Assembly (NCBI GenBank): GCA_029261405.1 | Contig: JAJDBK010000035.1 | Span: 1-33,674, forward strand | Reading direction: 5' to 3' | DNA length: 33,674 nucleotides | Source: Nitrospinaceae bacterium | GTDB lineage: Bacteria; Nitrospinota_A; UBA7883; JAJDBK01 | Part shown: one piece after another, positions 1,117-33,674 of the stretch | Position numbering within the stretch: the first letter of the stretch is position 1 | How the letters are laid out: each line of letters opens with the position of its first letter | Notes under the pieces: generated by a model | Seen by the model: only the letters and a program-made list of their open reading frames with translations | Databases searched by the model: none | What the model was told of the DNA's origin: nothing | Translations under genes and position numbers: made by a program

Positions 1117-2028
1117 ATGATCGTAGATTCCCACGTCCATCTTGTCACGGGTGGAATGGTCAAGGCGGCAAAAAAAAAACTGGACAAAGACTTCCCTGGT
1201 GTCCTAGACAAGTCTATAAAAAAAGGGAAAGGTCTCATCAACGCCGATTTCATTAAATTTCTTTCAACGACCTCCCTGGAAAATCTTGCTGACCTTTGGG
1301 AAAAGGAACTCCTGAAGAACAGGGTGGACAAAGCCGGTTTTCTACCCATAACCGGAGCAAGGACCGGGGAACTGGATGAGTTTCTCTCCATTAATCCTGA
1401 AAAATTCTACGGGTACATCTTCATAGACAATATAGACAATCCGTCGTCGAAAAGCGCCGCCCAATCTGTCAAGAAATGGTCGAAAAACGGACGGTTTAAA
1501 GGAATTAAGCTGTATCCCTCATTGAACCGGACAAGCGTGGCCGACAAACGTCTCTATCCGCTATACGAAGCCGCTGGCGAAACCGGTACTCCGGTACTGA
1601 TCCACTTCGGTATCAGCACCGCCCCCGCCGCCGACTACAGATATACAAATCCTCTCGATCTGCAACTCCCCTCACGACTCTTCCCGGAAACAAAATTCAT
1701 AATCGCCCATTTCGGGGCCGGGTTCTTCAGGGAGACGCTACTGTTGGGGTTTCACTCCGAAAACATATTTATCGACACATCCGGCACAAACAACTGGCGA
1801 CTTTTTCTGCCTGAAATCATGCCGTTAAGCCAGGTTTTCAAACGCGCCATCGACGTGTACGGGGCTGAGAGGATCCTCTTCGGTACAGATACATTGCTAA
1901 ACGGAACAAGCGGTTACAGGGATTTGGTTTTGAAAGAACAGAAAAAAGCGTTATCATCCATAAAGACACCTAAAAACGAGAAGGATCTCATCATGGGAGG
2001 AAACGCTCAACGGTTGTTTCGTCTTTAA
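1117..2028 (+). CDS. Amidohydrolase-2 (TIM-barrel) family metal-dependent hydrolase
   Basis: This 303-residue protein begins with the metal-binding HxH motif (H6, H8 in DSHVHL). Next come a KLYPS strand, H163 (VLIHFG), H198 (IIAHFG) and D258 (LFGTD). That is the metal and catalytic arrangement of amidohydrolase-2 barrel enzymes, which hydrolyse or decarboxylate small carbonyl compounds. The final NAQRLFRL is the usual family terminus, so the protein is complete. The ATG is preceded by a GGCGG-like purine stretch. It lies 62 bases upstream of ccmE on the same strand, but nothing links it functionally to cytochrome maturation. The substrate cannot be told from sequence. Confidence 0.8.
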   Translation: MIVDSHVHLVTGGMVKAAKKKLDKDFPGVLDKSIKKGKGLINADFIKFLSTTSLENLADLWEKELLKNRVDKAGFLPITGARTGELDEFLSINPEKFYGYIFIDNIDNPSSKSAAQSVKKWSKNGRFKGIKLYPSLNRTSVADKRLYPLYEAAGETGTPVLIHFGISTAPAADYRYTNPLDLQLPSRLFPETKFIIAHFGAGFFRETLLLGFHSENIFIDTSGTNNWRLFLPEIMPLSQVFKRAIDVYGAERILFGTDTLLNGTSGYRDLVLKEQKKALSSIKTPKNEKDLIMGGNAQRLFRL

Positions 2029-2090
2029 CGGTGATATGCTAGAATAAGTCCAGCAGTTAGAATCGCAAGAGCAGTACATTCAGGAGAAGT

Positions 2091-2570
2091 ATGAACAACG
2101 AAACCAACCCGCCACAGGTCAAGCCGAAAAAGAAGGGGCTTAACCAGGCACAGAAGAAATTTTTAATCGGCTCGTTAATTCTTGTCGGCGCCATAACGTA
2201 CCTGATCTATTCAGCCATAGACACCAGCGCAAACTACTACTACAAGGTGGCCGAAGTAAAGGCCATGGGAAGCCGCGCCATGAATATGGCCCTTCGCCTG
2301 GAAGGAAAGGTAGCCCCTGGTACCATCGCTAACGACGCCGCCAACCTGAAACTTCGTTTCGAGGTTGTGGACGACTCAAAAGCCAGCATTCGGGTCTACT
2401 ACGAAGGAATGGCGCCAGACATGTTGCAGGACGATATAGATGTCGTGGTCGAAGGCTCCCTCGATTCTTCGGGGCAACTGGTAGCCACGAGGGTTCTGAC
2501 AAGCTGTCCGTCGAGATACGACGCCGCCGAAGAGGCAAAAGAGGCCAAGGAGTCTGAGAAATCGATCTAG
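2091..2570 (+). CDS. ccmE: Cytochrome c maturation heme chaperone CcmE, Cys (CX3Y) variant
   Basis: CcmE receives heme from the CcmABCD transporter, binds it covalently in the periplasm and hands it to CcmF. This 159-residue protein has a short basic cytoplasmic tail, one membrane anchor (about residues 24-42) and the OB-fold segment containing YYEGMAPDMLQD. The conserved heme-attachment motif is normally HxxxY. Here it reads C139-P-S-R-Y143, so the heme-binding histidine is a cysteine. CX3Y CcmE proteins are known from some archaea and sulfate reducers. A short charged tail rich in Glu and Lys follows. An AGGAG sits upstream of the ATG. ccmF follows after 87 bases. Confidence 0.92.
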   Translation: MNNETNPPQVKPKKKGLNQAQKKFLIGSLILVGAITYLIYSAIDTSANYYYKVAEVKAMGSRAMNMALRLEGKVAPGTIANDAANLKLRFEVVDDSKASIRVYYEGMAPDMLQDDIDVVVEGSLDSSGQLVATRVLTSCPSRYDAAEEAKEAKESEKSI

Positions 2571-2657
2571 ACGTATCTGCAAGTAGATCATGCTTACCAT
2601 CAATATTATCCCGATGGCGCGAACATAATTGTCGGCCATTCGCAGAGGTTTTCCACA

Positions 2658-4643
2658 ATGAATGAAATAGGTGAATATTCTCTTATACTGGCACTATTGG
2701 CTTCTGTCTACGCCGTGATTACTCCGGTTATAGGTGACCGGAAGGGTTCAGTGGCAATGGTCAAAAGCGGTGAATACGCTTTAATGGTTGTTTTGGGTCT
2801 GTTGAGCATAACGTCATACGCGCTCATGAACGCCCTCTACAGCAACGATTTTTCACTCGAATACGTCTACAGTTATACGAACCGTGAACTCGGCTGGTTC
2901 TACCGCGCATCGGCGTTCTGGGCCGGTCAGAAAGGCTCACTTCTCCTCTGGGCGTGGATGCTTGCCCTGTTCGGAAGCGTGGCTGTCTGGCAGAACCGGA
3001 AGATGAACCGTGTGTTGATGCCGTATGTAACATCAATCATCGCTTTTACACTGACTCTTTTTACGATGTTGATGGTTTTCGCGTCACCTGTTTTTTCTAG
3101 AATGGACGTTCTGCCGGGGGACGGTTACGGATTAAATCCGATGCTGGAAAATCCGGGAATGGTTTTTCACCCACCATCCCTGTACGTCGGTTTCGTGGCG
3201 GTAACCATTCCTTTCGCATTCGCCATGTCGGCTCTTATAACAGGTCAGTTGGGGGATGTGTGGATACGGACCACCCGGCGATGGTCGATTTTCGCATGGC
3301 TCTTCCTGACCTTCGGAAACCTGCTAGGCGCCAACTGGGCCTATGTGGAACTCGGATGGGGTGGTTACTGGGCATGGGACCCGGTTGAGAACGCCTCCTT
3401 CATGCCGTGGCTCACCTGCACCGCGTATCTTCATTCCGTCATGATCCAGGAGAAGAAGGATATGCTCAGGACATGGAACATGGTCCTGATTTCACTGACT
3501 TTTCTCTTGACGATATTCGGAACGTTTATTACCCGATCCGGCATGATAAGCTCTGTCCATTCATTTGGCGAATCTACTGTGGGAGCCTACTTTCTAGCTT
3601 TCCTGATCTTTTGCACCCTTTTTTCCATAGCTCTCATTGTCTGGAGGCTACCCCTGCTTAAAAGCGAGCACTCCCTCGATTCCATGCTCTCCAGAGAAGC
3701 GTCGTTTCTATTCAACAACCTGCTTCTGGTTGGAGCGGCGTTCACAGTATTCTGGGGAACAATGTTTCCGATGATCTCCGAGCTTGTGCAAGGAGAGAAG
3801 ATAACCGTTGGCCCCCCGTTTTTTAACCAGGTGATGACTCCTATCGCCCTGGCTATTCTTGTTCTTACAGGGATATGCCCCCTTATCGCGTGGCGAAAGG
3901 CCAGCGTTAAAAACTTTAAAAAGAACTTCATGACACCCTTTCTCATAACCGTCGCCGGGTCAATTATTGTGGGACTGACAGGTGTCACACAGTTCATGCC
4001 GTGGCTCTCGCTGACTATCTGCATATTCGTTCTGGCCACAATCTCAATGGAGATTTTCAAGGGCGTAAAAGCTCGGTCGGCTTCCGGCAAGGAGAACGCC
4101 CCCCAGGCTTTCATAAACCTTTTGTGGCGGAACAAGAGGCGGTATGGTGGCTACATAATTCATACCGGCGCTGTTTTTGCGATTATCGGCATGACAGGCT
4201 CCTGGTTTAATATGGAGACCGAAGCCACATTGCAACAGGGTGAGAAGATGACCGTCGGGGATTACACTCTCACCTATTACAAATACGACTGGACCAGGCC
4301 GAAGGAGACCAAAGAAGAGGTGGTAGCCACCTTGCTTGTGGAGAAGAACGGTGAACCGATAGGTTACGTCACACCGGAGAGAAACACCCACTACACAAAG
4401 ACCATTAACGGTGAGATGAATCCTCAGCCTACCTCTGAAGTGGCTATCCACACAACATATAAAGAGGATCTCTACGTTATCTTCGCATCCCTCAACGAAG
4501 ACGGTTCCGGGACATTTAAAGCCCACGTCAACCCGTTGGTCAAATGGCTCTGGCTAGGCGGAGTCATCATGGGATTAGGCGGTATCCTCACAATGTGGCC
4601 CGACAAAAAAGAAAGAGAAAGATTCCTCGCCCGGCACCAATAG
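2658..4643 (+). CDS. ccmF: Heme lyase subunit CcmF
   Basis: CcmF is the polytopic core of the System I heme lyase, which ligates heme to the CXXCH motifs of apocytochromes c in the periplasm. The 661-residue protein has more than ten hydrophobic segments. The tryptophan-rich WWD heme-handling motif reads GWGGYWAWDPVENASFMPWL. Other typical family stretches are GLNPMLENPGMVFHPP and GTFITRSG. A soluble periplasmic segment near the C-terminus (about residues 520-630) precedes the last transmembrane helix. Length and motifs match a complete CcmF. An AGAGG lies upstream of the ATG. It follows ccmE directly; ccmH- and ccmI-like genes are 23 kb away. ccmABC are not in the window. Confidence 0.96.
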   Translation: MNEIGEYSLILALLASVYAVITPVIGDRKGSVAMVKSGEYALMVVLGLLSITSYALMNALYSNDFSLEYVYSYTNRELGWFYRASAFWAGQKGSLLLWAWMLALFGSVAVWQNRKMNRVLMPYVTSIIAFTLTLFTMLMVFASPVFSRMDVLPGDGYGLNPMLENPGMVFHPPSLYVGFVAVTIPFAFAMSALITGQLGDVWIRTTRRWSIFAWLFLTFGNLLGANWAYVELGWGGYWAWDPVENASFMPWLTCTAYLHSVMIQEKKDMLRTWNMVLISLTFLLTIFGTFITRSGMISSVHSFGESTVGAYFLAFLIFCTLFSIALIVWRLPLLKSEHSLDSMLSREASFLFNNLLLVGAAFTVFWGTMFPMISELVQGEKITVGPPFFNQVMTPIALAILVLTGICPLIAWRKASVKNFKKNFMTPFLITVAGSIIVGLTGVTQFMPWLSLTICIFVLATISMEIFKGVKARSASGKENAPQAFINLLWRNKRRYGGYIIHTGAVFAIIGMTGSWFNMETEATLQQGEKMTVGDYTLTYYKYDWTRPKETKEEVVATLLVEKNGEPIGYVTPERNTHYTKTINGEMNPQPTSEVAIHTTYKEDLYVIFASLNEDGSGTFKAHVNPLVKWLWLGGVIMGLGGILTMWPDKKERERFLARHQ

Positions 4644-4679
4644 GCGCGTGTACCCTCCAGGGCATAAACTCCCTGCCAT

Positions 4680-4797
4680 TAACGCTGGGAGCCGATGGTC
4701 TGATTACGATTGCTCCGGTAGGTGCGTGGCGCACACCCATTCACGCTGACGCTGGGAACCGAACGGTTATTTACGTTCGCTCCGGTAGCGGTGGCTT
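4680..4797. repeat. Imperfect tandem repeat, period 67 bases
   Basis: Two copies start with the same ACGCTGGGA (4682 and 4749). They share the order ACGCTGGGA, CCGA, GATTACG or ATTTACG, then GCTCCGGTAG. The period of 67 is not a multiple of three. On the plus strand the copies read LTLGADGLITIAPVG and, one frame over, LTLGTERLFTFAPVA, which suggests repeated coding sequence that has since frameshifted. The protein family is not recognised. The repeat occupies the start of the 383-base interval after ccmF. Confidence 0.55.
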
Positions 4798-5026
4798 CGC
4801 CACCTTCCTCCGACTCTGTTACGGGTGGCTGGGCCACACTGCCATGACACACCCATGACTCCGATAGCAAGGACGAGCGGCGCAGTAAGACTCCCACCAG
4901 CAGTACGTTGGTATCAACTGTCATCAGTAACGACTTATATTGGTACCGCTTAAATGGCCTCCCACATTCAAATCTATTTAAACGTTATAATGAGAGTGTA
5001 TTCAAGAATAGAACGGGAGAGGATTT
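4798..5026. other. Intergenic region upstream of the GAF histidine kinase
   Basis: No convincing gene is present. A TATAAT at 4986-4991 lies about 35 bases before the kinase start and could be its -10 box, but the -35 region is poor. GGGAGAGGA at 5015-5023 is a strong ribosome binding site for the TTG start at 5027. Confidence 0.4.
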
Positions 5027-6301
5027 TTGTCATCTGGAGATTCGGGCGCTAACGAGGTATACGCCAAGGCATTGGCGGAGTCTAACCGGGCCTTTAGCGG
5101 CAAGGTCAAAGAACTCTCCCTTGTAAGACGGCTATGTGACGCGCTTCTGAAAGCCGACAGCCTGGAGTCTACCCTCCGTTTAAGTGTCGATATAATTTAC
5201 GAAGAGATGGAGCCTATGAACTGCTCCATCATGCTCTACGATGAAAGACGGTGCGAACTGATCTTGCGATCTGTCAGGGGTAGAAGCAATAAGTCGGCCC
5301 ACTACTTCAATTATTCGCCTGATAGCAGGGTCATCCCGGTAGACACCACCCTGGCCGGGAAAGCGGTGCTGTCGCGTACTACGTTCTATTCGAACGACAC
5401 AAAGACCGAACCATCGTTTCTTTTTATACCTGACGGAGTGAAGATACTATCAATCCTGTGTACACCTCTGCTCTCCAAGTCAAAGGTTCTGGGGGTCATA
5501 AACTTAAGCTCGGCCAACCCGGACCATTTTACCACCGAGGCCGGAAGGATTCTTTCTATAGTATCCGGATACGTCGCCATGAGCGTCGAAAACGTAAATT
5601 TGCTAAAAGACCTTCTGGCCAAGGAGCGTCTCTCCGCCCTGGGCGCCATGGCTTCGACGATGGTTCACGACATGAAAACCCCGATTCATGTTATCGGCGG
5701 GTTCGCTCAACTTCTACTGGATGAGGGTGGAGACAGGATAGAGAGGGAGGAGTATTACCGTACCATCCAGACTCAACTGAAACGTTTCACATCCCTGGCG
5801 GAGGATACCCTCGAATATGTACGAGGTCATGAATCGAGCCTGACGTTTACTCCCATAACGCTGGAGATCCTCGCATCGGAAGTGAGCAAAGCTTTCGGCC
5901 CTTTACTCGATAAAAATGGAATATCTCTCTCCTGCACCGTGGTTAACAACGCCACGATTAAAGTTGACTGGGATAAATTTTGGCGGGTGATCGATAACAT
6001 AGTGAAAAACTCCATCAACGCCATGAGCGATGGGGGCAAGATGAATATAACTTTTACCGGCGCCGATAGAGAAGCGATCATGGAGTTCTCGGACAACGGA
6101 CCGGGAATACCGGCGATGATCCGTGAAAAAATATTCGATCCGTTCGTCACCATGGATAGAAGGAACGGAACGGGCCTGGGGCTTGCCATCGTAAAAAAGA
6201 TCGTCAACCAGCACGGCGGTTCAATAACCGTAACCTCATCACCAGGCTCTGGCTCCACATTTATCATCGGCCTCCCGGCCGATACTATGGGGGTGGGTTA
6301 G
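5027..6301 (+). CDS. GAF-domain sensor histidine kinase
   Basis: This 424-residue soluble kinase has a GAF sensory domain (about residues 30-190). A HisKA dimerisation domain follows, with phospho-acceptor H214 in MVHDMKTP. A complete HATPase_c domain comes next, with the N box (NIVKNSINAM), G1 (DNGPGIP), F box and G2 (GTGLGLAIV). There are no transmembrane segments, so it senses a cytoplasmic signal or partner. The start is a TTG, chosen because GGGAGAGGA sits just upstream. No response regulator is adjacent, so it is an orphan kinase. The CheR/CheB cluster at 17-25 kb contains candidate receivers, but that link is speculative. Confidence 0.9.
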   Translation: MSSGDSGANEVYAKALAESNRAFSGKVKELSLVRRLCDALLKADSLESTLRLSVDIIYEEMEPMNCSIMLYDERRCELILRSVRGRSNKSAHYFNYSPDSRVIPVDTTLAGKAVLSRTTFYSNDTKTEPSFLFIPDGVKILSILCTPLLSKSKVLGVINLSSANPDHFTTEAGRILSIVSGYVAMSVENVNLLKDLLAKERLSALGAMASTMVHDMKTPIHVIGGFAQLLLDEGGDRIEREEYYRTIQTQLKRFTSLAEDTLEYVRGHESSLTFTPITLEILASEVSKAFGPLLDKNGISLSCTVVNNATIKVDWDKFWRVIDNIVKNSINAMSDGGKMNITFTGADREAIMEFSDNGPGIPAMIREKIFDPFVTMDRRNGTGLGLAIVKKIVNQHGGSITVTSSPGSGSTFIIGLPADTMGVG

Positions 6302-6454
6302 CCTCGCCAGGCGCTGGATCTAGAACCAGGTCCATATCGGCTATGCGCATGAAGATTCAAGAGCGCGTTTTTCCCACTCTTCGACGTTTACACCCTTAAC
6401 CAAAAACCACAGACCAAATGATATTTTAAAAAGCCCCCCCCGACTCCCAGCGCC

Positions 6455-7224
6455 ATGCCCCAGAGGATACCCCCACGCACCGCCACCCGAAGGCCGCCCC
6501 AGCGGGCCAAGGTGATTCTTTATTCCTCCGAGGGATTACCGTTACCTTCCATCAGTGAGAAAAGTGGTCTTAGCAAACAGAACCGCTCAAAGTGGCGCAA
6601 GCGGTTCTCCGAAAACCGGCTTGAAGGATATGAAGGGCCGGGGCAGACCGCGAGAGATCACGCCACAGCAACGTCTGAATGTCATCGCACTTGCAAGTAG
6701 CAAACCGACCGACGGTAGTGTGAGAAAGCTGGCTGAGGCGACCGACATTGGCGTGGCTACGGCGCATCAGATTCTCAACGAAGGAGAGATAAAACCCCAC
6801 AAGGTCGAGTATTGGCGCGGCAGGAGTCCAGACCCTGAGTTCGCGGAGAAACAGACGGCCATTCTCGGTTTGTATCTGAATCCGCCGGAGAACGCGCTGG
6901 TGTTGTCCGTTGACGAGAAGTCGCAGATACAGGCTCTTGACCGCACTCAACCGGAGCTTCCCAAGCGCTCATAAACATCACGCCGTCACACAGTGGGCGT
7001 CGAAGCGGAGGCGCTTGACATTTCACTTTACGCCGACATACGCATCATGGCTCAATCAGATTGAGATATGGTTCAACATTTTCACTAAAGATGTAATCAA
7101 GGGAGGAGTGTGGCGCTCCAGGAAAGAGTTGGTCAAACAGATCATGGGCTACATTAAACATTACAATGAAAACCGGGCGGCGCCTTTCAAGTGGACCTGC
7201 ACAGGAAAACCTCTGGTGGTGTAG
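6455..7224 (+). pseudogene. IS630-family transposase, frameshifted and internally deleted
   Basis: Three frames together give an IS630-type transposase. An N-terminal HTH (LPSISEKSGLSKQNRSKWRKRF) lies in the first frame. Near 6630 the reading moves to a second frame (KGRGRPREITPQQRLNVIAL through VLSVDEKSQIQAL, holding the first catalytic Asp). A third frame (LTFHFTPTYASWLNQIEIWF, holding the catalytic Glu) runs to a TAG at 7222-7224. The block that should carry the second catalytic Asp (the VDN.....HKH region) is missing at about 6960-6985, so the element cannot transpose itself. Terminal inverted repeats were not identified. Confidence 0.85.
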
Positions 7225-7273
7225 CTACCATGCTATTTACCGAACGTGACACTAGCTGGGCCTTCAGCGGTAA

Positions 7274-7456
7274 GCCAAGTTTGATGACTTCGTCGATGAG
7301 TTTAACAACGAAAGACCACATGAAGCTCTCAATATGAAGTCTCCGGCACAGGTCTACACCCCGTCGAGACAAGCTTATAAAGGGTTACCTGAAGTTGCGT
7401 ATCCGCCCCACGATAGAAACATTCTTGTCACAACTGTGGCCGTATGGGATATATAG
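7274..7456 (+). pseudogene. C-terminal remnant of an IS481-type integrase/transposase
   Basis: A 60-codon open stretch begins after a TAA at 7271-7273 and ends at TAG 7454-7456. It reads FVDEFNNERPHEALNMKSP, then VYTPSRQAYKGLPE and a YPPHD motif. This is the classic C-terminus of IS481 and related rve-core integrases. Everything upstream in that protein, including the catalytic DDE core, is absent. It follows the IS630 wreck by 50 bases. Confidence 0.8.
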
Positions 7457-7499
7457 ATTTGGAGCGGAAAACTATGCAACCACTCGATAACCCGTTCGG

Positions 7500-7555
7500 C
7501 CCGAGGTCGTTACCTATGTCTTAGGTACGTTCTGACACCCATGTCTCCGGGTCGG
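7500..7555. repeat. Probable terminal repeat region of the IS481-type remnant
   Basis: Two related blocks, ACCTATGTCTTAGGT and ACACCCATGTCTCCGGGT, lie in tandem just downstream of the integrase remnant. Such ATGTCT repeats are typical of the ends of IS481-type elements. The region sits 14 bases from the tRNA 3' end. The exact boundary cannot be set from one copy. Confidence 0.45.
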
Positions 7556-7568
7556 ACCCTTGATTTGT

Positions 7569-7645
<77 letters not shown>

Positions 7646-7656
7646 CCGGAAGAGGG

Positions 7657-7685
7657 ATGGTATCAGAGGGTTTGTACAAAGTCAA
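7657..7685 (-). promoter_or_regulatory. Sigma-70 promoter of the initiator tRNA
   Basis: On the minus strand TTGACT (7680-7685) is followed after exactly 17 bases by TACCAT (7657-7662). The mature tRNA 5' end lies 12 bases further on, which fits a short leader. Confidence 0.65.
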
Positions 7686-7767
7686 CAGATAGAGTGGTAA
7701 TATAAACGTGTCACCGTAGTTTACGTTCCCCTGGATACTCATAGATGAGATGTCGGACAAGCTCAGG

Positions 7768-7795
7768 TTGACTTTGGCGTTGGCGATCCTATCAT
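7768..7795 (+). promoter_or_regulatory. Probable sigma-70 promoter of hrcA-grpE
   Basis: TTGACT (7768-7773) and TATCAT (7790-7795) are spaced 16 bases apart and lie about 46 bases before the hrcA start. No CIRCE inverted repeat (TTAGCACTC-N9-GAGTGCTAA) is seen between 7646 and 7842, so there is no visible HrcA operator here. Confidence 0.5.
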
Positions 7796-7841
7796 ATATA
7801 GGGTTTAACTAAAATTCGCAAAAATATGAGAGGCTAACAGG

Positions 7842-8906
7842 TTGGAAATAATTTCTGACAGGGCCGCTTCGGTGTTACGGGCCGTGGTGGAGCGTTACAT
7901 GGCGCTGGCGGAACCGGTTGGAGCCAAAACACTTGCACATGGAAGAAAATTCAGTCTTTCCGCCGCATCCATACGCAACGTCATGCAGGAGCTGGAACTG
8001 AAAGGATATCTTACTGCGCCCCATACTTCCGCCGGAAGGATTCCCACCGACAAAGGTTACAGATATTTCGTCAATTCCCTGATGCAACCTGTCATGTTGT
8101 CCTTAACGGAGATCGAAAACCTGAAAAACGCCACCCACGGAAGTAGATGGCGTGATTTCGCCAGTCTGTTATCTTCAGTGTCGCGAGCGTTAGCGGAGCT
8201 TTCCATGCAGACTGCCTTGGTTGGCTTCGTATCGTCCAACGGACCTCCTGTAAAAAAAATACATTTCGTAAAGATCCAGGAGGAGCTTGTTATGGCGGTT
8301 ATCGTGGGACCGGGAGGAGAGATTAGAAACAGACTGATTCGACCTTCCGGCGGTTTTACCCAGAGCCACCTCGACAGAATTTCAAACTACTTTAATGATC
8401 GGTTCGCAGGAATGACTCTGCCTGGAATTTACAGTATGCTACTCGAAGAGACACTGCTCGAGAAGAACAGGGTAGATTTTCTCGTCAAATGGGCGTTTCA
8501 AATGGCCGACGCCATGGAAAAGGAGGAGCGAGCGCAAGCCGATGAAATGGTTTGCGTCGAAGGAGTGAGTAACCTCCTTATAAAGGAGAAGGGCGGTCCG
8601 AAGATTTCGGAGGTTAAAACCTTGCTAAAAACCTTGGACGAAAAGAGCAGGCTCACGGGTTTCCTTAACGAACTTTTAGTAAACGATGGTGTGAACCTTG
8701 TTATAGGCGGTGAGTCTGGAATAGAAGAGCTTTCACAGTTCTCAATGGTAAGCCACGTTTTTCCGGCTTGTAATAAGCCTTTGGGAGCGGTTTGTATTAT
8801 TGGTCCGAAGATTATGGACTACGGCAAAATTGTTGCGCTGGTATCGGTCACGGCCCTGGAAATGGGACAGCGGCTGTCGGGTTGCAGATATGGAGAGATG
8901 CATTGA
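7842..8906 (+). CDS. hrcA: Heat-inducible transcription repressor HrcA
   Basis: HrcA represses chaperone genes by binding CIRCE operators. The 354-residue protein has the N-terminal winged helix (RAASVLRAVVERYMALAEPVG; then SAASIRNVMQELELKGYL; then HTSAGRIPTDKGYRYFV), which is the family signature. The GAF-like core and dimerisation domain follow. The start is a TTG preceded by GAGAGG. The 3' end overlaps grpE by four bases, so the two are translationally coupled. Autoregulation through CIRCE is usual in this family, but no CIRCE is seen upstream. Confidence 0.95.
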   Translation: MEIISDRAASVLRAVVERYMALAEPVGAKTLAHGRKFSLSAASIRNVMQELELKGYLTAPHTSAGRIPTDKGYRYFVNSLMQPVMLSLTEIENLKNATHGSRWRDFASLLSSVSRALAELSMQTALVGFVSSNGPPVKKIHFVKIQEELVMAVIVGPGGEIRNRLIRPSGGFTQSHLDRISNYFNDRFAGMTLPGIYSMLLEETLLEKNRVDFLVKWAFQMADAMEKEERAQADEMVCVEGVSNLLIKEKGGPKISEVKTLLKTLDEKSRLTGFLNELLVNDGVNLVIGGESGIEELSQFSMVSHVFPACNKPLGAVCIIGPKIMDYGKIVALVSVTALEMGQRLSGCRYGEMH

Positions 8907-9589
8907 AGATAGAGATTGATGAGAACGGAGATCCAGAGGAGAGCGATTCCTGGATGGAAAAAGAGCTGGAAAAAGAGTTGGAGCCAGCGGAGTTTGACTC
9001 CGAGCCTCTGGAGGATCTGGAAGTCACACCCCTTTTCCAGAGGGAGTTACCTGTCGAACCGAGAGATGAAACTAAAGAACTAAAAGAGAGAATCGAGAGC
9101 CTGCAAATGGAACTCGAAATGCGCGAAGACGAACTAAGAAGAGCCAACGAAAAGTTTCTGCTCGTTACAGCGGAAACAGACAACTATAAAAAAAGGCTTG
9201 AGCGGGAAGCCGGAGAGGCGAAAAAATACGCCGCCCTTACTACTGTGGAGGCGCTTTTGCCAACTCTCGATAATTTCCACCAGGCGCTGGAAGCCGCAAA
9301 CTCTGAAAACACAAGCCTCACTTCCATCCAGGAAGGGGTGAAGATGGTTTTCGAGCAACTCTTTTCAGCCTTGGCTGAACACGGTTTGGAGCGAATATCC
9401 CCGGTGGGCCTGCAATTCAATCCGGAGAGTTCCGAAGCTATACAGATAGTGGAGGATCCGACAGCCGGGGACGGAACTGTTGTGGCCGAGTTCTCTCCCG
9501 GATACCGCTTTAAAGACAGGGTGATTCGTCACGCAAAGGTAGCTGTGGCGAAATCATCCGACCCCGACAGTCAGGATAACGCATCCTGA
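8903..9589 (+). CDS. grpE: Nucleotide exchange factor GrpE
   Basis: GrpE drives ADP release from DnaK. I place the start at the TTG (8903) that overlaps the hrcA stop as TTGA, because GGAGAG lies about six bases upstream. This gives 228 residues. An acidic N-terminal tail leads into the long coiled coil (about residues 55-110, ELKERIESLQMELEMREDEL). The four-helix and beta-wing head follows, with LLPTLDNFHQAL and the C-terminal GYRFKDRVIRHAKVAVA signature. dnaK and dnaJ do not follow; the next gene is an unrelated transporter. Confidence 0.94.
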   Translation: MKIEIDENGDPEESDSWMEKELEKELEPAEFDSEPLEDLEVTPLFQRELPVEPRDETKELKERIESLQMELEMREDELRRANEKFLLVTAETDNYKKRLEREAGEAKKYAALTTVEALLPTLDNFHQALEAANSENTSLTSIQEGVKMVFEQLFSALAEHGLERISPVGLQFNPESSEAIQIVEDPTAGDGTVVAEFSPGYRFKDRVIRHAKVAVAKSSDPDSQDNAS

Positions 9590-9692
9590 AAAGTCCTGAC
9601 CAGATTTCTTCCTTTTCGACCTTTCTTCACAGACAATGGAAGATCACCCATAAAAACCGGCTGACCGGTAGCAGGAGTTCCCGATAAGCAAC

Positions 9693-10874
9693 ATGAAAAA
9701 ACCAGGTTTTTCTCCAGCGGAAAAAAAAGCGATAGCTGGACTCTCCGCTGTTATCGGTTTCAGGATGCTGGGGCTTTCCGCCCTGATTCCAGTCTTCTCG
9801 GTATACGCATTATCCCTTCCGGGGTCGTCCCCCATGCTGGCTGGACTGGCCTTTGGTGTATACGGACTCACCCAGGCGTTATTGCAGATACCTTTCGGTT
9901 TCATGTCGGACAAGTATGGCAGAAAACCGGTGGTGGTCGTAGGTTTGGCTATTTTCGGCATCGGAAGCGTAATCGCCGCTATGACCGGGAATATCTATAC
10001 GCTTATCGCCGCCCGTTTTTTACAGGGCGCTGGAGCCATAGCGTCCGCTTGTTTCGCCTGGATCGCTGACCTGACGGATGCGTCCAGAAGAAATATGGCC
10101 ATGGCCTTCATGGGGATATCTATCGGGGGCGGAATAACGTTGGGTATGATTTTTGGCCCGGTCCTGGGGTCAGCTTTAGGGGTGCCATTCCTCTTCTGGA
10201 TGGCGGCTCTTCTGTCGGTTTTGGCGATATATATAACTTTATTTATCTTGAGGGAGCCTGAAAAACCGGAGACCGATGTCGATCCAGACTTTGCCCTTAA
10301 CCCTCGAATAGCCCTCAAGTATGCGGCCACATGGGATCTTTTCAAGCTCGACCTTGCGGGATTTATCGTTAATACGAGCATGATAGGAACATTTTTCATC
10401 GTACCGCTCAGGTTAGCGGAGAGTTTTGCGATGTCAGAGCTGTGGCAAATCTACCTTCCGTTTTCCGTTTTTGGTTGCGCCGCCATGATGTTTTCGTCGA
10501 TACGCGCAGATCGTGGTTCAGCCAAAGAGGTGATTGCGATGTCACATATCTTCATCGCGTTATCTTTTTTCGGATTGGCGCTGGGTGAGGAGACCTGGGT
10601 CGTCATAGTCTCGTTCGGTATTTTCTTCTCCGCCTTCTCCGCCCTGGAGGCGACACTGCCTGCGGCGGTAACAAAACTTGCCGACCCCGAGCATAAGGGG
10701 TCGATTGTGGGCGTTTATAACTTTTCCCAGTTCATGGGGACATTTGTCGGGGGTGTTTCGGCCGGATTATTCGCTGGAGTCGGTGGCTCTTACATGTGCG
10801 TTCTGGCCATTTCCAACGTAATAGCCGCAGGACTTGTGTATAGCGCTACGGGAATAAACAAAACCCCCGAATGA
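9693..10874 (+). CDS. Major facilitator superfamily transporter
   Basis: This is a 393-residue inner-membrane protein with about twelve hydrophobic segments in two halves. The MFS signature between TM2 and TM3 reads GFMSDKYGRKPVVVVG. The TM4-TM5 region is RFLQGAGAIASACFAWIADL, resembling drug-proton antiporters. The substrate cannot be told. An AGGAG lies 14 bases upstream of the ATG. It follows grpE by about 100 bases and probably has its own promoter. Its stop codon lies inside a hairpin shared with the convergent small gene downstream. Confidence 0.88.
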   Translation: MKKPGFSPAEKKAIAGLSAVIGFRMLGLSALIPVFSVYALSLPGSSPMLAGLAFGVYGLTQALLQIPFGFMSDKYGRKPVVVVGLAIFGIGSVIAAMTGNIYTLIAARFLQGAGAIASACFAWIADLTDASRRNMAMAFMGISIGGGITLGMIFGPVLGSALGVPFLFWMAALLSVLAIYITLFILREPEKPETDVDPDFALNPRIALKYAATWDLFKLDLAGFIVNTSMIGTFFIVPLRLAESFAMSELWQIYLPFSVFGCAAMMFSSIRADRGSAKEVIAMSHIFIALSFFGLALGEETWVVIVSFGIFFSAFSALEATLPAAVTKLADPEHKGSIVGVYNFSQFMGTFVGGVSAGLFAGVGGSYMCVLAISNVIAAGLVYSATGINKTPE

Positions 10875-27247: not shown

Positions 27248-27633
27248 TCTATAATACGCTATAAATCAAAGGGTTGACGTGTCAGCCATATCGCTTGTAT
27301 ATATGGCTACCTGAAACAACCGGGTGAGAGGTGAGGTTCCAGTTGTACGGGATATAGTCGGTAACCGCCCTGCTCTCCGATACCGGACGACCGACCAATA
27401 CGCAGGGTAATCTTCCTCTGAATTGACGGACGGAATACCTGGTTTTTCAGTAAAAGCCCAGCTACAGGGGGAGCGATCAGTCAAATCCAAAGGTTGCTGT
27501 AAATTTCACTTCATCGAACTGGTGGAAAAGTTCATTTCATTGCATCCTTTGGGCTTGAGCGACTTGGGCGGGGCCAAACTACCAAAGCCGGTTTTATGGT
27601 ACGATTAGCGTCCAACTGATTTAGGTGTATTTA
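27248..27633. other. Long intergenic region with potential RNA structure, no recognised gene
   Basis: No convincing protein is seen; the two short frames here look like chance. An 8-bp perfect hairpin AGCCATAT/ATATGGCT occurs at about 27284-27308. Further on GTCGGT (27357-27362) pairs with ACCGAC (27390-27395) while CCCTGC (27368-27373) pairs with GCAGGG (27402-27407), an interleaved pseudoknot arrangement. A TCCG/CGGA hairpin lies between. It could be a leader RNA of the downstream ccmH gene or a stand-alone RNA. Confidence 0.3.
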
Positions 27634-28191
27634 ATGCGTAGTTTGCTTATTATTCTGATTTTGATCGCATCACCCGCTTTCGCGCAGACAGCTCCGGTCT
27701 CTGAACATGAAGAGCTGGCGCAGAATATCGCGCAGGGGGGAGGGGTGAGCCACCTCGATGATTTTCTTGTCTCTGAACATGAAGAGCTGGCGCAGAATAT
27801 CGCGGGCCAGCTGATGTGTCTTTGCGGGTGCAAGTCCACTCTTGCCACCTGTCCCCATACCGATTGCGGGTTTGCCATACCAGCCAACAAGCTGATCCTT
27901 GACATGCTAAACAAAGGCCAAACCAAAGATCAGGTCGTAGCCTTTTTCGTCGAACGTGAGGGTGAGGTAATGCTGGCACAGCCACCAAAAAAAGGGTTCA
28001 ACCTGGTAGGATACATCTTCCCGTTCGTGGTGATCCTTTTCGCAGGTTATCTGATAGCCAGAATCCTTGGCGCATGGACCAAACGTGGCGAGATGAAACA
28101 CGCTCCCGCTGGAGCCACAGCGGGAAACCGCACTACCGACGACAGCTATTCTGAACGAATCAAAAATGAACTATCCGATTATGAGGAGTAA
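27634..28191 (+). CDS. CcmH-like cytochrome c maturation protein with an unusual Cys-rich motif
   Basis: Classical CcmH reduces apocytochrome CXXCH cysteines using an LRCxxCQ motif. The 185-residue product (start ATG 27634, preceded by TTAGG) has a signal peptide (1-18) and a short periplasmic domain. In place of LRCxxCQ it has C62-L-C64-G-C66, C73 and C78 (LMCLCGC, then TCPHTDC). The helical ANKLILDMLNKGQTKDQVVAFFVEREGE matches the CcmH bundle. A membrane anchor follows (about 122-142). It should face the periplasm. Residues 22-33 and 46-57 are an exact duplication of VSEHEELAQNIA. The ccmI-like gene follows six bases later. Confidence 0.85.
   Translation: MRSLLIILILIASPAFAQTAPVSEHEELAQNIAQGGGVSHLDDFLVSEHEELAQNIAGQLMCLCGCKSTLATCPHTDCGFAIPANKLILDMLNKGQTKDQVVAFFVEREGEVMLAQPPKKGFNLVGYIFPFVVILFAGYLIARILGAWTKRGEMKHAPAGATAGNRTTDDSYSERIKNELSDYEE
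27697..27804 (+). repeat. Perfect 36-base direct repeat inside the ccmH-like gene
   Basis: Bases 27697-27732 and 27769-27804 are identical over 36 positions, 72 bases apart, with a 36-base unrelated spacer. The period is 24 codons, so the frame is kept and the product carries the 12-residue segment VSEHEELAQNIA twice. Perfect third positions suggest a very recent event. The flanks on either side do not match. Confidence 0.9.
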
Positions 28192-28197
28192 ACGGAA

Positions 28198-28608
28198 TTG
28201 TTATTAGTTGCCGAGATACTACTACTGGGTGCGACCCTATACATCATTGCCCTACCCCTTCTGGGGCAAAAAGTCAGTACCACAGGAGAACTTACAGAAA
28301 ACGCGCTCTCCGAACTGATGTATAAAAAAGACGCGGCTTTCATTGCGCTAAAAGACCTTAAATTCGATCACGCAACCGGCAAGATTGATGAAGTCGATTA
28401 TGAAGAGATGAAAACCCGGTTCGAATCGGACGCTATCGCTGTGTTAAAACAGATCGACGATTATCGTGGTGTCCCGAAAACAAAAGAAACTGTAAAACCA
28501 GCGGAAGCCATCGCTACGGCGGATAAAAAAGTTCGGTATTGCCACCAGTGCGGGGTCAGCACAGTTGAGACGCACAAGTTCTGCTCCGATTGCGGGGCGA
28601 AACTGTAA
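28198..28608 (+). CDS. CcmI-like membrane protein with C-terminal zinc ribbon
   Basis: The 136-residue protein has an N-terminal membrane helix (about 2-24) and a helical segment like the start of CcmI (AFIALKDLKFDHATGKIDEVDYEEMKTRFE; given as about residues 48-77). The end is CX2C-X10-CX2C (YCHQCG...CSDCGAKL), a zinc ribbon. CcmI holds apocytochromes for heme attachment, but its usual TPR domain is missing here and the ribbon takes its place. The start is a TTG with GAGGAG upstream inside the end of the ccmH-like gene. Clearly co-transcribed with that gene. Confidence 0.75.
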   Translation: MLLVAEILLLGATLYIIALPLLGQKVSTTGELTENALSELMYKKDAAFIALKDLKFDHATGKIDEVDYEEMKTRFESDAIAVLKQIDDYRGVPKTKETVKPAEAIATADKKVRYCHQCGVSTVETHKFCSDCGAKL

Positions 28609-30651: not shown

Positions 30652-30663
30652 ATGCTGATACAG

Positions 30664-31259
30664 ATGGATGAGACACAGATTCGGACTTTGGGAGATATCG
30701 AGGGTTTTTTGAGCGGAACGGGTCAGGTATGCCTTGTATTTCATGGCGGTAAGGATAAAGCCTATGCGTGGATCGAGCGTACTCTGGTACGTTTTCGCTA
30801 CATACAGCTCGACAGGAAGGGTAAAGGGATTGTTCGCAGGTACATCATGCAATTAAGCGGATATTCACGACAACAAATAACTCGATTAATCAGTCAATAT
30901 CGGGAGAGTGGGCATATCCGCCGCCAGCAACGGACAGTTAATGGGTTCGAGCGCAAGTACACGCCCGATGACATACAGCTTTTGGCGATGGTGGATCGCC
31001 TTGTTGATGATGTTTCCGGCACAACGACGAAGGCCTATTGCAAACGGGCGTATGAAGTTTTCCACGACCAGCGTTTTATTCGACTGGCTCATATTTCCGT
31101 GTCCCACATTTACAACTTGCGCGGCGGAAAAGTCTACCAGCGTGTAAGGCGCAAATTCACGAAGACCAAAGGTGTAAAGGTCAACATTGGTCAACGATGC
31201 AAGCCGTGTCCAAATGGAGAGCCGGGGCGTCTGCGGGTGGATTCGGCGCATCAGGGGCC
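30664..31259 (+). pseudogene. Truncated rve-core integrase/transposase, C-terminal half lost
   Basis: The first 200 residues resemble stand-alone DDE integrases of the IS481/IS3-like superfamily: AYAWIERTLVRFRYIQL, GYSRQQITRLISQYRESG, a helical linker, then ISVSHIYNLR, FTKTKGVKVNIGQ and the first catalytic Asp in RVDSAHQG. Reading then runs into unrelated sequence (PVAE and stop at 31272). The rest of the catalytic core is missing. Start ATG 30664 has an AAGGA eleven bases upstream. The breakpoint at about 31254-31260 joins it tail to tail to the toxin-like gene. Confidence 0.8.
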
Positions 31260-31659
31260 TGTCGCCGAATAGCCCCAGTTCAATAAGGAAGTGCACCGCC
31301 TGCTTGTAGGCATCTGGAGTGAATTTATCGACATGAATTATCTTGCAGATATCGCGTGAATAAGCGCGGATAATATCGGTTAAATCGACGTCGCTTAAAT
31401 CAACTAGATGGAACGCATCAAGCAGAATCCATGTTTCTTTGGAAAATGGTTTTAATCCAGGCGGAAGCTTATAGTTTTGAGGCCAATCATTTTTGTGGCA
31501 ACCAATTTCAGGGCTTTTCTTTTTCCGTTGGCTTGTCGCAAGTGCCAGGAGAGCGGTATTCTTTTTTTCATCAAGGCCGATACAAACGGTAAATTTTGAT
31601 TTCGAGGAACCATCCGGGAAAGTCCATTTTTTCCAGTGGCGTATCGCTCCAATCCTCAC
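31256..31659 (-). pseudogene. Basic toxin-like protein, 3' end removed by the integrase junction
   Basis: About 134 residues are preserved before the frame enters antisense of the integrase. The visible part has RHWKKWTFPDGSSKSKFTVC, a strand LLALATSQRKKK, a Cys-containing loop, and FSKETWILLDAFHLVDLSDVDL before C-terminal helices. The strand-rich order and 'ATSQ...FxKxTWIxLD' pattern recall SH3-barrel MazF/PemK-like toxins, but I do not recognise the family firmly. The GTG start overlaps the upstream gene stop as GTGA, so it is translationally coupled. Genes of this size behind a small acidic protein often form toxin-antitoxin pairs. That is an inference. Confidence 0.55.
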
Positions 31660-32948: not shown

Positions 32949-33674
32949 TTAACCTTCCGGATTCGTCAACTTCGATTTCTTTTTCCGCATCGATTCTCCC
33001 TTCAAATTTATCTTATAGGCATTGTGAACCACCCGGTCGAGGATGGCGTCAGCAAGAGTCGGATCGCCGATCGATTCGTGCCAATCGCCCACCGGCAACT
33101 GGCTGGTGACAATAGCCCATAACGCTCCTCGATGATTTCAAACATAGACCTGCGATGTTCTGTGGACATCGGGTCGAGTCCCAGGTCATCGAGGATAAGC
33201 AGGCCAGCTTTTCCAATGGCTTTGGTGAGCTTGCCGTAGCGTCCATCTTTCCTGACCTCGCCTGTAGTTCTATCGATAACGTCAACCGTGAGGCCGCAGT
33301 AGTCGACGAACATCTTCTCGCCAGCCACATGAACCTGGCGCATGGAAAGGGAAAGCTTACCTTGAAAGGCACGGTAAAGATCGCAGAACCGGGTGTATTG
33401 GTAACCGTCCGGGTGATGGGCCTTGTACTCCTGCCATAGCAAAAGTAAGGTTACACCCTTGCGTTTTAAATCCTTGTGGATATCCGCAAAGTCGGGCATG
33501 GGGCGTTGAACGGACGCCAACGGAGGTGGCGGAAACAAAAGACGTTCTATGGCCTCGTCGTCCATACCATCTGGCAACGGCCACCTGATACCAGCCATTC
33601 TGGCGCGAACAAGGTGGTCGGCCACAGTACTTTTGGCGATTGAAAGGCTTTTGGCAATCTGACGGTTGGTCAGT
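32949..33674 (-). pseudogene. IS21 istA-istB deletion fusion, running off the window edge
   Basis: The minus strand shows the N-terminal part of the IS21 transposase IstA (ADHLVRARMAGIRWPLPDG, then LLWQEYKAHHPDGYQYTRF, then MFVDYCGLTVDVIDRTTGEV). At about 33250 it jumps in frame into the C-terminal half of the IstB helper ATPase (DGRYGKLTKAIGKAGLLILD, the Walker B region, then [10 protein letters not shown]). A second lesion near 33112 shifts the frame, after which [15 protein letters not shown] and [17 protein letters not shown] finish IstB at TAA 32949-32951. Most of istA including its catalytic core and the istB Walker A half are deleted. The istA start lies at or beyond the right edge. 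Confidence 0.85.

Follow-up and report, generated by a model that had tools for sequence, protein, structure and literature searches.

A five-cysteine CcmH and a CcmI-like neighbour accompany a Cys-type CcmE in a Nitrospinaceae bacterium

The 33,674-nucleotide contig of a Nitrospinaceae bacterium analyzed in the present study (contig 35 of its genome; hereafter, the window) encodes a haem chaperone CcmE with a cysteine at the position of the haem-binding histidine. A preliminary description of this DNA also recorded a CcmH-like gene 25 kb away with the pattern CxCGC...C...C instead of LRCxxCQ. Noting that CX3Y CcmE systems have been described as lacking CcmH, it suggested that the variant may use a distinct thiol partner. 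Is this protein a CcmH of the Cys-type system, and does a Cys-type CcmE need it? The release of haem from its covalent bond to CcmE and the role of CcmH are open questions in System I, and Cys-CcmE systems are frequently presented in published work as being free of CcmH.

Cys-CcmE systems are known as System I*, with CPSKY as the common motif (2011 review, PMC3601427). The title of a 2006 paper attributed "no CcmH" to these systems; the 2011 review corrected this view, reporting CcmH in approximately one third of Cys-CcmE bacteria and its absence as not characteristic (PMC3601427). The Cys-CcmE of Desulfovibrio desulfuricans binds haem covalently, and the cysteine of Methanosarcina acetivorans CcmE is required (PMC3601427, PMC9084895). 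The Cys-CcmE archaea Geoglobus and Ferroglobus have two putative CcmH proteins without LRCXXC, which carry LX[SN]C[EDH]C and are encoded beside a duplicate CcmF (PMC4600277).

The features of the window are listed in Table 1. In the alignment, H130 and Y134 of Escherichia coli CcmE corresponded to C139 and Y143, which confirmed the replacement noted in the preliminary description; the PF03100 match was well above the cut-off of 24.6 bits. This was the single PF03100 match in the whole genome (3.27 Mb, 99.5% complete), and the same profile search revealed no His-type CcmE. The window protein thus has the cysteine for histidine and the tyrosine four residues further that define System I*, and no His-type CcmE accompanies it in the genome. 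The absence of CcmH, which was part of the original definition in 2006, does not hold here: two PF03918 proteins exceeded the cut-off of 25 bits. Residue mapping placed H173, H261, H303, and H491 of E. coli CcmF on H171, H259, H301, and H502, respectively, of the window CcmF.

Table 1. Features of the window related to cytochrome c maturation.
Feature	Position	Strand	Description	Basis
ccmE	2091..2570	+	Cys-type haem chaperone, 159 aa; N-terminal anchor helix, CcmE domain 48-145	PF03100, 87.1 bits
C139-P-S-R-Y143 motif of CcmE	2505..2519	+	haem-binding His replaced by Cys, Tyr retained	alignment to E. coli H130/Y134
ccmF	2658..4643	+	haem lyase, 661 aa; WWD motif and H171, H259, H301, H502 kept	PF01578, PF16327
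ccmH, CxCGC type	27625..28191	+	188 aa; signal/anchor, three-helix CcmH domain, C-terminal TM helix	PF03918, 58.1 bits; PDB CcmH 2kw0/2hl7 by profile and fold
Direct repeat in ccmH	27697..27804 (copies 27697-27732, 27769-27804)	+	exact 36-nt repeat in N-terminal part; SEHEELAQNIA doubled	
Cysteine segment of CcmH	27817..27867	+	C65-x-C67-G-C69-x6-C76-P-H-x-x-x-C81 in place of LRCxxCQ	Cys conservation, pLDDT
CcmI-like gene	28198..28608	+	CcmI-N-terminus-like anchor and coiled segment, then zinc ribbon for TPR domain	weak TIGR03142; hhalign; PF13240 just under cut-off

The cysteine segment of CcmH, LMCLCGCKSTLATCPHTDC, contains C65, C67, C69, C76, and C81, all of which were invariant in an alignment of 44 relatives from many phyla. 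The LRCxxC redox motif is absent; its place is taken by CLCGC...C...C, with CPHTDC in the second part. A profile of the variant CcmH aligned to the PDB domains 2kw0 and 2hl7 (E 2e-6 and 1e-5, respectively), with its first cysteine on the LRC cysteine of classical CcmH. The AlphaFold2 model of the window protein, built with 44 sequences, had a pLDDT of 83.6 overall and approximately 97 over the cysteine stretch, and predicted the three-helix-bundle periplasmic domain characteristic of CcmH. A Foldseek search with this model returned 2hl7 and 2kw0 as the top two hits at a probability of 1.00, with E values of only approximately 0.01-0.02 and target TM scores of 0.67 and 0.60, respectively. The profile match, alignment to PDB domains, and predicted fold all identify the open reading frame as a true CcmH. 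The only NCBIfam match, to NrfF (TIGR03147), was weak and far below the cut-off (28.5 bits against 159.2). The 36-nt repeat was absent from the aligned relatives and, among these, is peculiar to the window genome; it looks like a recent insertion within the first helix.

The neighbouring product resembles CcmI only at its N terminus. The CcmI N-terminal profile TIGR03142 scored 17.2 bits, below the cut-off of 29.3, and exceeded it in the orthologues of loci L099 and L118 (31.4 and 30.5 bits, respectively). The hhalign comparison with CcmI N-termini gave 74%. The zinc ribbon match (PF13240) was slightly under its cut-off, and the Pfam profile search found no TPR domain in this protein. In the cross-phylum survey described below, the CcmI-like gene adjoined the CxCGC ccmH in nearly all loci, and the ribbon pattern was present in 56 of the 78 CcmI-like neighbours.

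The remainder of the genome was queried by single-family profile searches. CcmA, CcmB, and CcmC are encoded together on contig 11 and a full DsbD with a thioredoxin domain on contig 54; we regard the system as complete because of these genes. Twelve redoxin-family matches exceeded the cut-off. A second, HxxxY-type CcmE and a classical CcmH elsewhere in the genome, which the preliminary description had named as contrary evidence, did not appear: the PF03918 search found no LRCxxCQ CcmH, and the second PF03918 protein, on contig 1, carries CPCECP...CHMSC. It is encoded within a cluster (locus L302, G000:C1:44000-60000, positions 5368-10718) together with a redoxin, a CcdA-like membrane protein and a 347-aa protein (both without a Pfam match), an FGE-sulfatase-type protein, CxxCH proteins, and a TlpA-like thioredoxin. 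CcmH of this CPCECP...CHMSC type was present in approximately 12 of 15 Nitrospinota genomes and in some Desulfobacterota.

In the window genome, ccmH is approximately 25 kb from ccmE and not linked to it. Among 15 Nitrospinota genomes, each at least 90% complete, CcmE was found in 13, with the motif CPS[KR]Y in every CcmE read, and the CxCGC CcmH in all 15. Some Nitrospinota relatives (L074 and L078) have an unsplit ccmE-ccmF-ccmH, and in a Nitrospinota metagenome-assembled genome (L065, positions 1587-4073), ccmF continues into the CxCGC ccmH without a stop, as one open frame of 829 codons, which is either a real fusion or the result of a lost stop codon. Since relatives keep this order, one of them as a single frame, the 25-kb gap most plausibly reflects the splitting of an ancestral operon.

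We then used the CxCGC CcmH alignment as a query against one genome per species, without selection for the CcmE type. It yielded 80 loci, which by name belong to about a dozen phyla, at least 10 of them besides the phylum of the window; these names are the submitters' titles, mostly of metagenome-assembled genomes, and some of them plainly cannot be trusted. For example, the CcmF of a metagenome-assembled genome titled Klebsiella pneumoniae (L102) groups with Binatia, and the title is probably wrong. The order ccmE-ccmF-ccmH(CxCGC)-CcmI-like-ccmA-ccmB-ccmC recurred in many of the 80 loci. Every readable motif of a CcmE linked to a CxCGC CcmH was of the Cys type (CPSKY, CPSRY, CPSKF, or CASKY), and the 55 loci in which the motif was called comprised 55 Cys and no His. 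When 47 of the genomes with a CxCGC CcmH were searched in full, CcmE was detected in 41; these searches returned 30 loci, in which every CcmE read was of the Cys type. The co-occurrence that the preliminary description expected was therefore borne out across many phyla, usually within one operon. Tandem ccmE paralogues were present in four loci (L080, L096, L084, and L101), the extra copy having CPHQY/CPHAY or CPSKL/CPDKL for CPSKY. Five loci (L070, L083, L113, L128, and L298) carry a further CcmH-like cysteine module (CxCGxC...CxC) in other open reading frames, that of L083 also bearing zinc-ribbon-like CxxC pairs.

Two phyla, their names inferred from the titles of the centre genomes, were surveyed from the side of CcmE. 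Among 98 Desulfobacterota genomes drawn evenly, 17 had CcmE (16 Cys and 1 His). A PF03918 CcmH, of the CxCGC or CYxCxGEPL...DRC type, was detected in 10 of the 17, and no PF03918 protein was detected in the other seven, namely, 6 of the 16 Cys-CcmE genomes and the His-type genome. The sole His-type CcmE in this sample (KHSEEY; genome G093, loci L198 and L301) thus belongs to a genome in which PF03918 was not found. Among 151 Chloroflexota genomes, 110 had CcmE and 82 of these had a PF03918 CcmH. Both surveys, together with the 2011 correction, contradict the view that Cys-CcmE systems are free of CcmH. Three pairings were observed in Chloroflexota: Cys-CcmE (CPSKF) beside a classical CPVCQ CcmH, Cys-CcmE (CPTRY) beside a CPVCE...CPTEAC CcmH, and His-CcmE (KHDENY) beside a CPDCQ CcmH. 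Cys-CcmE lineages outside the CxCGC group have a CcmH with C-x2-C and two further cysteines or one, and the CcmH of locus L283 has lost most of its cysteines. A Metabacillus plasmid (L175, NZ_CP088246.1) encodes Cys-CcmE with a CcmH of the GCTDSMTADYC type; its ccm operon also includes genes for a TlpA family protein and for cytochrome oxidase assembly. His-CcmE with an LRCxxCQ CcmH was found in E. coli and in five Pseudomonadota loci of the plasmid collection.

Based on these results, we consider it likely that the window carries two of the three pieces of a System I* operon that has been split, and that its CcmH/CcmI pair is remodelled and acts on CcmF. The pieces would be ccmE-ccmF (2-4.6 kb) and ccmH with the CcmI-like gene (27.6-28.6 kb) in the window, and ccmA-ccmB-ccmC outside it, on another contig. 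CcmABC would export haem, which Cys139 of CcmE would bind covalently and hand to CcmF; for the chemistry at C139, we infer this from homology to Desulfovibrio and Methanosarcina. CcmF, the CcmH variant, and the CcmI-like anchor protein would then join haem to CXXCH apocytochromes. The latter two proteins most likely sit on CcmF, in keeping with the gene order of the operons and the single frame that joins ccmF to ccmH. The CxCGC CcmH would be the standard CcmH of a broad Cys-CcmE operon lineage, inherited with the operon and not demanded by the cysteine chemistry.

The alternative closest to the preliminary description is that the two proteins are co-adapted and that Cys-CcmE depends on the CxCGC CcmH as a dedicated thiol partner, which might, for example, cleave the stable haem-cysteine thioether or maintain Cys139 in the reduced state. 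We find this unlikely, although the exclusive occurrence of the CxCGC type with Cys-CcmE speaks for it. In the table of linked loci, which includes near-copies, Cys-CcmE accompanied a CxCxC CcmH in 55 loci, CxxC with further cysteines in 19, plain CxxC in 18 (all Chloroflexota), and other CcmH in two; His-CcmE, sourced from E. coli K-12, plasmid records, and Chloroflexota, accompanied plain CxxC in 14 loci, had no CcmH nearby in three, and was never linked to a CxCxC CcmH. Plain CxxC was thus found in 14 of the 14 His loci with a CcmH and in 18 of the 94 Cys loci, the other 76 having different motifs (Fisher p 3e-9, uncorrected). However, on the CcmF tree (122 rows), with four changes for the CcmE residue and seven for the CcmH motif, only three independent contrasts were available for His-CcmE against plain CxxC CcmH, a number too small to give a test any power, so that the association is not significant and coupling is unproven. 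In CcmF, the residues that distinguished the Cys systems from each of the two His clades were scattered exchanges only, with nothing interpretable. We regard the association as real as a description, and common operon inheritance may account for it. The 18 Chloroflexota loci, the six Cys-CcmE Desulfobacterota genomes without a PF03918 protein, and the Desulfovibrio system, which functions without CcmH (PMC3601427), also argue against co-adaptation. A strict coupling of Cys-CcmE to the CxCGC CcmH is ruled out by the Chloroflexota pairs. The partnership is not obligate because Cys-CcmE also occurs with a classical CxxC CcmH or with none. Because Chloroflexota use a classical CcmH and some Desulfobacterota none, the five-cysteine motif is typical of one large Cys-CcmE lineage and not required by the cysteine chemistry. 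In L283 most of the cysteines have been lost, and in other loci CcmH is missing entirely, which likewise suggests that Cys-CcmE chemistry can, in general, proceed without the five cysteines. The preliminary description therefore stands in its genome content and co-occurrence, whereas its CcmH-free premise does not and the proposed need for a distinct thiol partner is weakened by the classical CPVCQ CcmH of Chloroflexota and the lineages with none.

A reading of more weight than co-adaptation, albeit not a favoured one, is that the five-cysteine segment forms a structural metal (zinc) site without redox activity and that CcmH is only a scaffold on CcmF. The five invariant cysteines, their zinc-knuckle-like spacing, and the high predicted confidence of the stretch are consistent with such a site, as are C-x2-C with two or one further cysteines in other Cys-CcmE lineages and the losses in L283, which are expected if redox activity is dispensable. 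However, the fold search returned no matching metal site, and one of the cysteines occupies the alignment position of the LRC cysteine in classical CcmH. It is very improbable that the CcmH-like gene serves another pathway, such as that of an NrfF-type lyase, and is present with Cys-CcmE incidentally. The 25-kb distance from ccmE and the weak NrfF match as the sole NCBIfam hit might point to this, but the gene lies directly behind ccmF in the ccm operons of other phyla and other Nitrospinota, and once in one open frame with it (L065). We tentatively speculate, with considerable doubt, that the five-cysteine CcmH and zinc-ribbon CcmI-like protein constitute a synthetase module distinct to bacterial Cys-type Ccm systems, in which a metal site or multi-cysteine relay at the point of the classical CxxC may help release haem from the CcmE cysteine.

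The window genome shares CPS[KR]Y CcmE, a single CcmE, WWD CcmF, and CcmABC with the System I* of D. desulfuricans and M. acetivorans. In contrast to these, it has retained a homologue of CcmH along with a CcmI-like protein, whereas Desulfovibrio has neither CcmH nor CcmG and the archaea lack CcmD, CcmH, and CcmI (PMC9084895). With the classical CcmH of E. coli (2kw0) and Pseudomonas aeruginosa (2hl7), the window protein shares the predicted three-helix bundle, TM anchor, PF03918, and position behind ccmF, between which and ccmH classical operons have ccmG; it differs in having CxCGC...C...C for LRCxxCQ and a zinc-ribbon CcmI-like neighbour for the TPR-bearing CcmI. The CcmH proteins of Geoglobus and Ferroglobus are also rich in cysteine, without LRCXXC, and from a Cys-CcmE host. 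However, they are archaeal and have a different, shorter motif, which sets them apart as described (PMC4600277). That paper was the only one on a cysteine-rich CcmH in our literature search, and the open literature searched, which excludes most subscription papers, contained no description of the five-cysteine bacterial CcmH or its zinc-ribbon CcmI-like partner. The pair is well conserved and apparently undescribed. Cys-CcmE systems form a natural series with five-cysteine, four-cysteine, three-cysteine, classical two-cysteine, and no CcmH around a conserved CcmF core, which offers ready test cases for which cysteines of CcmH, if any, are needed with a Cys-type CcmE.

Inspection of the window by eye also showed short near-repeats downstream of ccmF, ahead of the following gene (4651-4860), and transposase-remnant-like open reading frames at 6455-7224, 30652-31659, and 33008-33674, the last of which is at the contig end.
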